Shown one piece after another: positions 2-5,763 of a DNA stretch of 64,000 nucleotides (its first letter is position 1; each line of letters begins with the position of its first letter). The DNA comes from Gammaproteobacteria bacterium. GTDB lineage: Bacteria; Pseudomonadota; Gammaproteobacteria; Ga0077536. The position numbers and the translations under genes are program-made. The DNA lies in contig JACQWY010000021.1 of assembly GCA_016209015.1 (NCBI GenBank), forward strand, positions 186,001-250,000. Direction: 5' to 3'. The notes below the pieces were generated by a model. It saw only the letters and a list, made by a program, of their open reading frames with translations. It was not told the DNA's origin and did no database searches.

Positions 2-868
2 GGCGGCTTCTTCAAGGATCTCGTGCTCGCGCCCGACGGCCGCCACTATCGCATCGACGTCTATTCCTGGGTCGGCCTCATTCCGATCTTCGCCTGCGAA
101 GTGCTCGACGAGCGCCTGCTCGCGAACGTGCCGCGCTTCAGGGCCGTGATCGAGCAGCACGTCGGCGGGCACTTCCAGGGCCACTGGTACGTCTCCGCCT
201 GCCCGGGCCGCGTCAACGCGCGCGGCGAACGCCTGCTCGCACTCGTCGACGAGGACAAGCTCGTACAGATCCTCGCCCGCGTCCTCGATGCCGGGCAGTT
301 CTTCTCGCCCTATGGCGTGCGCAGCGTCTCGCGTGTCCACGCCGGGTACCGCAGTCTCGGCAGCATTCCCGGGCTCGGCGAGACGACGATCGAATACGTG
401 CCGGGCGAATCGAACTCGGGCCTGTTCGGCGGCAATTCGAACTGGCGCGGTCCGGTGTGGATGCCGACGAACTACACGCTCGTCCAGGCGCTCGAGAAAT
501 TCCATCGCTTCTTCGGCGAGACGCTGAAGATCCCCGTGCCCGAGCTCGGCGGGCGTCCGTGCACGCTCGGCGAAATCGCGACGCTGATCGCCGAGCGTCT
601 CGTCGACATCTTCCGCCGCGACGCGCAGGGCCTGCGGCCGGTGTTCCCCGCCGACAGTCCGCTGCAGCACGACCCGGCGTGGCGCGATCTGCTGCTCTTC
701 CCCGAGTACTTCCACGGCGAGACGGGGCAGGGTCTCGGCGCTCAGCACCAGACCGGCTGGACCGGGCTCGTCGCGAATCTCGTGATGCGACGCTATCGCC
801 GCGACATCCCCGAGATCTGGCGCGCCGCGCCGCATGCCGCCGCCGCGGAGGTGCGTCATGCAGGCTGA
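2..868 (+). CDS. GH63-type glycoside hydrolase / glucosidase, C-terminal part (5' end cut by window edge)
   Basis: The reading frame is open from base 2 to a TGA at 866-868, giving 288 residues of a protein whose start lies outside the window. The sequence has the hallmarks of the (alpha/alpha)6-barrel C-terminal domain of GH63-like glucosidases: an IDVYSWVGLIPIFA segment, the block GESNSGLFGGNSNWRGPVW (around residues 135-153 of the visible part) and a late HQTGWTGLVANLV motif. The Glu in GESNSG is the likely catalytic carboxylate by family analogy. Enzymes of this group hydrolyse alpha-glucosidic bonds in oligosaccharides; the actual substrate cannot be told from this fragment. The next gene, an MFS transporter, starts inside its last codons, so the two are probably co-transcribed and may handle the same sugar. 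Family assignment is fairly secure, specificity unknown. Confidence 0.75.
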   Translation, partial: GGFFKDLVLAPDGRHYRIDVYSWVGLIPIFACEVLDERLLANVPRFRAVIEQHVGGHFQGHWYVSACPGRVNARGERLLALVDEDKLVQILARVLDAGQFFSPYGVRSVSRVHAGYRSLGSIPGLGETTIEYVPGESNSGLFGGNSNWRGPVWMPTNYTLVQALEKFHRFFGETLKIPVPELGGRPCTLGEIATLIAERLVDIFRRDAQGLRPVFPADSPLQHDPAWRDLLLFPEYFHGETGQGLGAQHQTGWTGLVANLVMRRYRRDIPEIWRAAPHAAAAEVRHAG

Positions 869-2060
869 GGCGCATCAGAAGGCCAGCCGGCTCGCGATCG
901 CGACGCTGTATGCGAGCACGGTGTTGCAGGGGCTCACGCTCGTGAGCTATCCCGCGCTCGCCGGCGTGCTCAGGACGACGGTCGGTCTCGACGACGCGCA
1001 GTACGGCGCGAGCTTCCTGCCGCAGGTCGTCGCGACCGCGCTCGCCGCGCTCGGCGGCGGCGCGCTTGCGCGGCGGCTCGCGCTGCGCCCGGTGCTTGCA
1101 CTCGCGCTCGTGCTGAACGCGATCGCGGAGCTGCTCCTCGTCGCGAGCGGCGTCTGGCCCGCGGCAGGCTTTCCGCTCGTGCTCGCGGGCACGGCGAGTC
1201 TCGGTCTCGGCTTCGGACTCTCCGCCGCACCCCTGAACGCCTTGCCCGGCAGGCTGCTGCCCGCGCGCCGCGAGTCCGCGCTCGTCGCCGCGCACGCCGG
1301 CATCGGCGCCGGGCTCGCGCTCGGACCCGTGCTCGCCGCGGCGCTCGCCGCCGCAGGCCGCTGGCAGCTCCTGCCGGCCGGACTCGCGATCGCGGCGTCG
1401 CTCCTCGCGCCTGGCGCGCTCGTCGCGCTGCCGCGGAGCGACGACGCGCCGGCACGGACCGCGCGCGCAGGCCGTTCACCCGCAGCCACCGGTGCGTTCT
1501 GGCTGCTCGCCGCGACGGCGGTCGTCTACGCCCTCGCCGAAGGCACGTTCAGCGGCTGGGCGGTGATCTATCTCAGCGAGGATCGCGGCCTCGGCGGCGC
1601 GAGCGCGGCGCTCGGCCTCACGGCGTTCTGGACGGCGCTCGTCGCCGGCCGTATCGCGGTCGCCGCACTCGTCGAACGTCTCGGCACGCTCAGGCTCTGG
1701 CTCGCGCTGCCGCCGCTCATGATCGCGGCCTTTCTCTGTCTGCCGCACGTGCGCACCGCAGCCGGAGGCGTGCTCGCCTTCGCGCTCGCCGGCTTCGCCT
1801 GCTCCGGCTTCTTCCCGCTGACCGTGGCGCGGGCGGCGGCGCGCTACCCGGACGACGTCGCCGCGGTGTCCTCGCTGCTGGTGGCCGCGCTCATGCTCGG
1901 CGTCGGGCTCGGCAGTTTCACCGTGGGTCCGCTGCGCGCGGCGCTGCCGCTCGCGGATCTCTACGAGCTCGCGGCGCTCTATCCGGCCCTCGCGTTCGTG
2001 CTCGCGCTCGCGAACTGCCGCGCGCCTTCCGTCCGCCTCGCCCTGGAGCGCGCGCGATGA
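858..2060 (+). CDS. MFS transporter
   Basis: A 400-residue, strongly hydrophobic protein with about twelve predicted membrane segments split by a polar central loop (around residue 200, with the acidic/basic stretch RSDDAPARTARAGR). This is the layout of a major facilitator superfamily carrier in the inner membrane. The overall pattern is closest to the FucP-like or general sugar/drug branch, but no substrate motif is evident. I chose ATG 858 because GGAG lies at 847-850, seven bases upstream. An ATG eight codons earlier lacks such a site. It overlaps the glycosidase end by 11 nt, and its TGA overlaps the next ATG (ATGA). Together with the GH63 neighbour it could import the released sugar or a glycoside; that is inference from position only. 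Confidence 0.8.
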   Translation: MQAEAHQKASRLAIATLYASTVLQGLTLVSYPALAGVLRTTVGLDDAQYGASFLPQVVATALAALGGGALARRLALRPVLALALVLNAIAELLLVASGVWPAAGFPLVLAGTASLGLGFGLSAAPLNALPGRLLPARRESALVAAHAGIGAGLALGPVLAAALAAAGRWQLLPAGLAIAASLLAPGALVALPRSDDAPARTARAGRSPAATGAFWLLAATAVVYALAEGTFSGWAVIYLSEDRGLGGASAALGLTAFWTALVAGRIAVAALVERLGTLRLWLALPPLMIAAFLCLPHVRTAAGGVLAFALAGFACSGFFPLTVARAAARYPDDVAAVSSLLVAALMLGVGLGSFTVGPLRAALPLADLYELAALYPALAFVLALANCRAPSVRLALERAR

Positions 2061-2584
2061 ATGCGCCGACCGAAGCGGGGATCGTCTGCCCGGTGTGCGG
2101 CGGACACAACGCGCCGGATGCCGTGTTCTGCGCGAACCCGGCGTGCCACAAGGCGCTCGGCGAATTCCGTTACGTGCAGGAGGAAGTGGCACGCGGCGCG
2201 TCCGGTCTGCAGCGTCTCGCCGAGCGCGTGGCGGCGTGGGTCGGGCATCCGCATTTCGTGCTCGTGCACCTCGCGGGTTTCGCGCTCTGGTCGCTCGTGA
2301 ATTCCGGGACGTTCGGCGCGGCGCTCGTCTTCGACGGGTATCCGTTCGGGCTGCTCGGCATCATCCTCGCCATCGAGGCGGTATTGATCACGAGCCTGCT
2401 GCTCATCAGCACGGCGCGCGCCGACGCCTACGAGCACAAGCGCGCGGAGCTCGAATACGAAGCGAACATCGCGTCCTACCGTCTGCTGCGACGGCTCGAC
2501 GCGGATCTCGGCGCGCTGCAGGAACGTTTGCACGCGCTCGAGAACGGCGTGCCGGCGGCGCGTGAACAGGATTCCGGCGCCTGA
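2057..2584 (+). CDS. DUF1003 membrane protein with N-terminal zinc ribbon
   Basis: The 175-residue product begins with a zinc-ribbon-like segment, CPVCGG at residues 12-17 and CANPAC at 27-32 (four cysteines as CxxC...CxxxxC). Two membrane segments follow (about residues 73-90 and 103-122) with the DUF1003 signature WSLVNS...FDGYPFGLLGIILAIEAV, then a charged probable coiled coil (residues 125-165, rich in E, R, L). DUF1003 proteins are inner-membrane proteins of unknown function. Coupling to the MFS gene through ATGA suggests co-expression. The bufferin-type precursor gene starts 72 nt downstream with its own ribosome binding site, so a link to it is possible but unproven. No biochemical role is claimed. 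Confidence 0.75.
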   Translation: MNAPTEAGIVCPVCGGHNAPDAVFCANPACHKALGEFRYVQEEVARGASGLQRLAERVAAWVGHPHFVLVHLAGFALWSLVNSGTFGAALVFDGYPFGLLGIILAIEAVLITSLLLISTARADAYEHKRAELEYEANIASYRLLRRLDADLGALQERLHALENGVPAAREQDSGA

Positions 2585-2656: not shown

Positions 2657-2926
2657 ATGTCCAAAGCAAGAAACCTCACCGGCCTCGCGATCGCCACCGC
2701 CGCGGCCGCACTGTTCGCGTCCACGGAGCTCTTCGCCGCCGCCGAAGCGGGTGCGAGCTCGGAAGCGATCGTGCACTGCCACGGCATCAACGCCTGCCGC
2801 GAGCGCGGCAACTGCAAGTCCGCCGACAATCAGTGCAAGGGCCATAACGCCTGCAAGGGCAAGGGCTGGACTGCGACGACCTCGGCGCAGTGCGAGAAGC
2901 TCGGCGGCACGGTGATCGCGGATTGA
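2657..2926 (+). CDS. bufA: Candidate bufferin-type RiPP precursor (six-cysteine, secreted)
   Basis: This is an 89-residue protein. Residues 1-28 form a classical signal peptide: basic MSKAR, a hydrophobic alanine-rich core, and a plausible cleavage after LFA or AAA. The mature part carries six cysteines at positions 41, 47, 53, 60, 66 and 79. The pattern CxGxNAC(R/K) occurs twice (41-48 and 60-67), with many Lys, Gly and Asn. Such small, exported cysteine-rich proteins next to DUF692 and DUF2063 genes are bufferin precursors: cysteines are modified by the MNIO enzyme and the product binds copper in the periplasm. ATG 2657 is preferred over 2621 because AAGGAG stands at 2644-2649 and the signal peptide then starts correctly. 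The bufA-like name rests on context and cysteine layout; metal and modification are not shown by the sequence. Confidence 0.75.
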
Positions 2927-2946
2927 ACCCGCGAACCGGAAGCCCG

Positions 2947-3840
2947 GTGAGTCCGGTGTCGCGGCAGCGGCATCGGCCTCGCTCGCAAGCGCGTGCAGGC
3001 CGCATCGCAGGCCCGGATCCGGGCTGCGGGCTCGGCCTGCGCAAGGATCACTACGACGACATCCTGGCCTCGCGGCCGGCGGTCGACTTCTTCGAGATCA
3101 TCACGGAGAACTATCTCGGCGCGGGCGGCGTGCCCTGGCATCATCTCGAGCGGATCCGCGCCGACTATCCGATCGTCATGCACGGCGTGTCGCTGTCGAT
3201 CGGCGGCACGGACCCGCTCGATCGCGCGTATCTCGGCGCGGTGCGCGAGCTCGCGGCGCGGCTCGACGCGCCGTGGGTCTCCGATCATCTGTGCTGGACC
3301 GGCGTCGGCGGCCGCAATCTCCACGATCTGCTGCCCGTGCCGCTGACCGAGGCGGCGCTCGATCACGTGGTCGCGCGTGTCGGCATCGCGCAGGATCTGC
3401 TCGGCCGCCGGCTCGTGCTCGAGAACGTCTCTTCCTATGTGCGCTTCACGGAGGCGGACATGACGGAATGGGAGTTCCTCGCCGCGCTCGCGGAACGTGC
3501 CGACTGTCTGCTGCTGCTCGACGTGAACAACGTCTACGTGAACGCCGTGAACCACGGCTTCGATCCGTATGCCTATCTCGCCGGCATTCCGCGCGGGCGG
3601 GTGCAGCAGTTCCATCTCGCCGGCCACACGAACCACGGCGCCTACATCATCGACACGCACGACGAGCCCGTCGTCTCCGCGGTGTGGGAGCTCTTCGGCG
3701 CAGCCGTGGCGCGCTTCGGGCCGGTGCCGGCACTCCTCGAACGCGACGACAACATTCCGCTGCTGCCGGTGCTGCTGGAGGAGCTCGCGCAGATGCGGCA
3801 GCTCTGCGCGGTCGCACATCCGCGCGAGGACGCCGCATGA
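2947..3840 (+). CDS. bufB: MNIO family (DUF692) peptide-modifying iron oxidase
   Basis: A TIM-barrel protein of about 297 residues of the multinuclear non-heme iron-dependent oxidative enzyme family. Candidate iron ligands are visible in order: FFEIITENY (Glu), [10 protein letters not shown] (His), VSDHLCW (Asp, His), [10 protein letters not shown] (Asp, Asn), FHLAGH and IDTHDEPV (His, Asp, His), and LLERDDNIP (Glu). By family knowledge it oxidises cysteines of the neighbouring precursor to a heterocycle in the cytoplasm before export. The start is uncertain: the frame is open upstream into the precursor gene, and GTG 2947 or GTG 2956 fit best, with GGA at 2938-2940. It ends ATGA with the next gene, so the pair is translationally coupled. 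Family call is strong; the exact modification is inference. Confidence 0.88.
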
Positions 3841-4604
3841 ACGCGCTGTGCACGCTCCAGCACGCGTTCCAGGCCGCGGTGCTCGGCGCTGCGGACACGG
3901 ACGCCTGGACGGGACCCCCGGGTGCCGGCATGGCGGTCTACCGGCATGCCTATCGCGCGCGGCTCGGCGAAGTGCTCGCGCTCGAATTCCCGAAGCTCGC
4001 GGCCTGGCTCGGGCCTGCGGCCTTCGAACGCCTCGCGGACGCCTATGTCGACGTCCAGCCGTCGCGGCACGCTTCCGTACGCGATTTCGGCGCTGAGTTT
4101 CCGGCCTTCCTGGGCCGGCAGGCGGACCTGCCGGAGCGCCGGCGTCGTGCGGCGCTCGCGCGTTTCGAATGGGCGCTCGGCGCCGTCTTCGACGCCCCGG
4201 ATGCCGCGGCGATCACGCCGGAGCGCCTCGCGGCCCTGCCGCCGGCCGACTGGGCGGGACTGCGGCTCGGCCTCGTCCCGGCGTTGCGGATCTGCCGTTG
4301 CGAGCCCTGCATCCCGGCCCTGTGGCAGCGCCTCGAGGGCAGGGCACCGGCGGAGCTGCCGGCGGCGCGCACGCGCGTGGCGCCGCACCTCGTCTGGCGA
4401 AGCGGTACGCGCGTCCGGTTTCGCGCGCTCGCGGACGACGAGGCGGTCGCGCTCGGTCTGCTCGCGCGGCGCCGCCGGCTCGCCGCGTTCTGCGAGGCGT
4501 TGGCGAGTCGTCTGCCCGGGGCGCCGGCTGCCGCGACGGCGGCCCGTCTGCTGCGCCGCTTCGCCGTGCTCGGCATTCTCGCCGCGCCCGCTGATCCGCG
4601 TTGA
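3837..4604 (+). CDS. bufC: DUF2063 / HvfC-BufC type partner of the MNIO enzyme
   Basis: A 255-residue protein starting with an N-terminal helical domain typical of DUF2063: [11 protein letters not shown], then [23 protein letters not shown] and a later [18 protein letters not shown] segment. The C-terminal half is winged-helix-like and Leu/Ala/Arg rich. In bufferin and HvfA-type clusters this protein forms a complex with the DUF692 oxidase and binds the precursor leader. Its ATG lies inside the stop of the preceding gene (ATGA at 3837-3840). The cluster has no visible DoxX-type fourth gene: tgt, a housekeeping gene, starts 49 nt later with its own promoter-like sequence. Function by homology and context. 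Confidence 0.82.
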
Positions 4605-4614
4605 CCGGGCGACC

Positions 4615-5763
<1,149 letters not shown>

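Follow-up and report, generated by a model that had tools for sequence, protein, structure and literature searches.

In the characterised bufferin pathways, cysteines of a precursor peptide are converted to 5-thiooxazoles by BufBC, the peptide is exported through the Sec system, and the product binds Cu(I) in the periplasm (PMC12452194, PMC13097082, PMC13419390). Buf1 bufferins (DUF2282, PF10048) have four cysteines, 90% of the Buf2 (BufA2) bufferins (Buf_6/12Cys) have six, and the structural models of the two precursor types are related (PMC12452194). The order bufA-bufB-bufC is typical of bufferin clusters and has been described as strictly conserved (PMC12452194). The one Buf2 member with a preliminary characterisation behaves like the copper-binding Buf1 type; the same paper left the Buf2 modification structurally unsolved (PMC12452194), and a thiooxazole in Buf2 peptides would be expected by analogy. 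In enzymes acting on Cys-Lys motifs, such as BufB2, the catalytic base is reported to be followed by Asp instead of Phe (PMC13097082). The EGKCG captophorins (fontiphorin and oxazolin HvfA; PMC13097082), also matured to 5-thiooxazoles by an MNIO and a PME1 protein, have EGKCG repeats and an enzyme with Phe after the catalytic Asp. Lastly, gammaproteobacterial DUF692 clusters from Antarctic soil (PMC8692599) consist of a six-cysteine precursor gene of about 240 bp, a DUF692 gene and a DUF2063 gene, with a putative cation antiporter gene upstream; a text search of PMC8692599 returned no mention of DoxX.

We analysed a 64,000-nucleotide stretch of gammaproteobacterial DNA (the window), in which three adjoining plus-strand genes, bufA2 (2657-2926), bufB (about 2947-3840) and bufC (3837-4604), follow one another in the order seen in Buf2 clusters. 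A sequence-only reading had described them as a precursor, a DUF692 enzyme and its DUF2063 partner in a bufferin-type cluster; the coordinates and profile matches agree with that description, and the NCBIfam cut-offs and the specificity residue of the enzyme sharpen it to Buf2/BufA2. The profile searches which that reading had suggested (DUF692, DUF2063, bufferin precursor) all gave matches (PF05114, PF09836 and NF050166), far above chance (E-values of 2e-24 for BufA2, 1.4e-110 for BufB and 1.3e-20 for DUF2063). We consider the locus to be a complete and ordinary Buf2 bufferin operon, whose predicted product is a copper-sequestering periplasmic peptide with thiooxazoles (probability about 0.9).

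The 89-residue BufA2 precursor matched NF050166 with 85.6 bits (84.9 bits in the genome search; cut-off, 60). Its gene is preceded by a good Shine-Dalgarno sequence (AAGGAG, about positions 2644 to 2649). A putative Sec-type signal peptide can be seen by eye (an n-region with Lys/Arg and a hydrophobic core, then a cleavage region rich in Ala and lacking a lipobox), and this part is covered by the profile alignment. Six cysteines were counted, in line with the earlier description of an exported six-cysteine peptide. The precursor contains three Cys-Lys motifs and one Cys-Arg, the latter in place of a Cys-Lys of the Buf2 bufferins. As the precursor has six rather than four cysteines and matched neither PF10048/DUF2282 nor any other family in a Pfam search, it is not of the Buf1 type, and reading of its sequence revealed no EGKCG repeats. 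The suggestion that the cysteine pattern might mark a distinct subgroup did not survive comparison, as the spacing (5-5-6-5-12) is the commonest in the family, occurring in 28 of about 80 precursors from relatives. Two Pseudoalteromonas loci (L086 and L096) encode precursors with duplicated six-cysteine domains, giving 12 core cysteines, the known Buf_12Cys form.

BufB scored 368.7 bits against NF050167 (cut-off, 310) and 367 bits against PF05114, but only 280.8 bits against the HvfB model (cut-off, 360); the MbnB, ApyH and ChrH models were likewise below their own cut-offs. It could be aligned to PDB 3BWW through the H-G, S-D-H, E-N, D-x-N-N, H-x-A-G-H, D-T-H and E-R-D motifs. Across an alignment of 116 MNIOs, the matching H, E, D, N, H and D positions show little or no variation, and all 116 have the catalytic Asp. 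The metal and catalytic motifs of BufB are intact, as the sequence-only reading had stated for the iron ligands. The residue following the catalytic Asp, the specificity site, is Asp, as in the Buf2 enzymes and in contrast to the Phe of the captophorin enzymes. The nearest BufB found shares about 64% identity with it across the full length. A recent duplication as the origin of this genome's two Buf2 copies was considered and is unsupported, as a quick tree does not pair them; the branch of the window BufB is weakly placed in that tree (SH-aLRT 43).

Reading of the bufB frame revealed no ATG start. The longest frame (2890-3840, plus strand) opens with a GTG, and the MNIO domain begins at its residue 46; the likeliest start, judged from the position of that domain and of a GGAAG, is the GTG at 2947 behind the GGAAG, which would place the beginning of bufB probably about 20 bases after bufA2. 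The lack of an ATG in bufB, the patchy distribution of the cluster and the failure of a promoter scan to find a sigma-70-like promoter might be taken to mean that the cluster is a decaying, unexpressed remnant. This is most improbable, however, as all three frames are intact with every motif kept, the Shine-Dalgarno sequence before bufA2 is strong, and the ATGA overlap that couples bufB to bufC (3837-3840), already noticed in the earlier reading, has been retained. Moreover, the scan is uninformative at this G+C content, and ECF promoters lie outside its coverage. A search for a shared ECF promoter motif upstream of Buf2 genes, using a GTAAC/CGA-type pattern, yielded none.

BufC matched PF09836 (DUF2063) with 73.9 bits. 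The HvfC model (cut-off, 142) gave it no more than 43.5 bits, a result counted against the Buf2 assignment. Its AlphaFold2 model (pLDDT 90.2, pTM 0.87) retrieved, in Foldseek, 3DEE (PME1; E = 4.7e-5) and TglI (TglHI entries; E = 1e-4), with weaker matches to MbnC and to RREs of lasso-peptide systems. These fold matches of the model indicate that the partner protein with its C-terminal RRE-like domain, as found in Buf2 systems, is present.

By analogy with the characterised relatives, BufC would hold the precursor, presumably bound by the RRE, and would activate BufB. With O2 and its mixed-valent di-iron site, BufB would turn some core cysteines, most likely those of the Cys-Lys motifs, into 5-thiooxazoles, with a loss of 4 Da each and an expected absorbance at about 305 nm. 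The peptide would then be exported by the Sec pathway with removal of the signal peptide, and the product would chelate excess Cu(I) in the periplasm.

Upstream of the operon lie an MFS transporter gene (834-2060, plus strand; PF07690, 75.7 bits) and, coupled to it by an ATGA, a gene for a DUF1003 membrane protein (2057-2584, plus strand; PF06210, 58 bits) that ends 72 bases before bufA2; both are putative members of the operon, and they stand where the Antarctic soil clusters have the cation antiporter. Downstream of bufC are tgt (4654-5763, plus strand) and then yajC/secD/secF. Neither a copper regulator nor an efflux gene was recognised beside the operon, which counts against a function in copper handling. 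The same modification might serve against another metal or stress (gold, mercury or oxidative stress), and gold-induced operons and MerC-Buf2 fusions have been listed (PMC12452194). Yet the sole Buf2 member with a preliminary characterisation resembles the copper-binding Buf1 type (PMC12452194), and we consider a target other than copper possible but rather unlikely.

The earlier reading was correct in stating that no fourth, DoxX-like gene follows bufC; no DoxX gene lies anywhere in the window, and the two in the genome are outside it, one of these in the same contig, 10 kb further upstream. However, the missing gene is neither notable nor a defining trait: of the 54 Buf2 loci flanked on each side by 1.5 kb or more, 49 have no DoxX in the adjoining 1.5 kb, as counted with a profile built here from few sequences and cross-checked only by looking for small membrane ORFs. 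We therefore rejected the loss of DoxX as a special feature of this operon.

Nothing diagnostic distinguishes the operon from Buf2; the system is already known and widespread among bacteria, and this is a typical example of it. The unusual features lie around the operon, not in it. The gene tgt forms the right edge of an 18.4 kb stretch that parts it from queA (C65:172281-190654 of the source genome, G000; from L016:4281 to position 4654 of the window), whereas in each of the 19 relatives open to scoring, those with both genes on one contig, queA and tgt are adjacent, at a distance of under 280 bases. The stretch contains an MNIO-DUF2063 pair (BufB/BufC; L016:4478-6149), two sigma-54 activator genes, a Buf1 (DUF2282) precursor gene followed by DoxX and without an MNIO (L016:9900-10756, 10.5 kb upstream of bufA2), metabolic genes and the window operon. 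It may have been inserted, or queA and tgt may have become separated otherwise. There is no tRNA gene in the window or in the upstream stretch, the junctions lack a long direct repeat, the composition does not stand out (G+C of 70-72% vs 67-69%), and no integrase was noticed among the ORFs read, not all of which were profile-scanned.

In the quick tree, the queA-adjacent MNIO clusters with those linked to Buf1 (SH-aLRT 99); its specificity site is occupied by Ala. A relative of the same family (G016) has the usual order of genes, Buf1 precursor, MNIO, DUF2063 protein and DoxX, next to a gene similar to the GAF-type regulators. In view of this grouping and of the usual order in G016, the upstream set is best read as a rearranged Buf1 system, its order changed to B-C-regulators-A-DoxX, which departs from the conserved order reported for bufferin clusters (PMC12452194). 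One could imagine that this set and the window operon form one mixed system, with a shared DoxX and possibly an exchange of maturases between the precursors, since both lie within the same 18.4 kb and the Buf1-type precursor is accompanied by DoxX but lacks an adjoining MNIO, and the queA-adjacent MNIO has no precursor beside it. But this MNIO belongs to the Buf1-linked clade and carries Ala rather than Asp at the specificity site, so that each precursor already has a matching enzyme, and nothing points to an exchange of maturases; such a mixed system seems very doubtful. That the stretch is a bufferin island, in which the Buf2 operon and the split Buf1 system act together, perhaps under sigma-54 control, is also an unlikely proposition. 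We retain the reading of an ordinary Buf2 operon next to a rearranged Buf1 set.

Judging by its distribution in the genomes compared, the cluster is accessory, as had been surmised: a clear BufA2 was found in just 1 of the 24 other genomes of the same family. A link to plasmids was not upheld, as there were just 15 plasmid records with weak matches. Five MNIO genes are present in the source genome (5.7 Mb), more than in any other of the 40 genomes compared (0 to 3 in the others). Besides the window operon and the pair directly after queA, these are in a doxX-bufA2-bufB-bufC cluster on C44 (L017:2720-6200) with divergent genes for an ECF sigma factor and a zf-HC2 anti-sigma factor, a cluster of the EGKCG captophorin type on C28, and a locus on C36 encoding an HvfB-like enzyme with an unusual precursor. 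A gene at L019:5156-5479 (minus strand) encodes an HvfA-like leader and a core without EGKCG and with only two cysteines, possibly an unusual substrate; the adjoining frames (L019:4291-5352 and 3521-4294) include an HvfB-like MNIO whose specificity residue is Glu.

Sigma genes have been reported as not found in Buf2 clusters (PMC12452194), whereas Pfam-confirmed ECF sigma genes were seen here within about 1.5 kb of BufA2 clusters at ten loci (L017, L135, L045, L047, L051, L065, L067, L071, L080 and L091). At L135, which belongs to G008, another genome of the family, BufB and BufC appear to be fused in a single frame of 568 residues (L135:5720-7426, minus strand), followed by an ECF sigma gene and a putative anti-sigma gene.

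As a missing DoxX is normal in the Buf2 subfamily, the maturation of Buf2 peptides is unlikely to depend on DoxX. The five MNIO loci of this genome, with their several substrate types and a split Buf1 system beside a Buf2 operon, make a convenient natural set for studying how maturases and precursors are paired.
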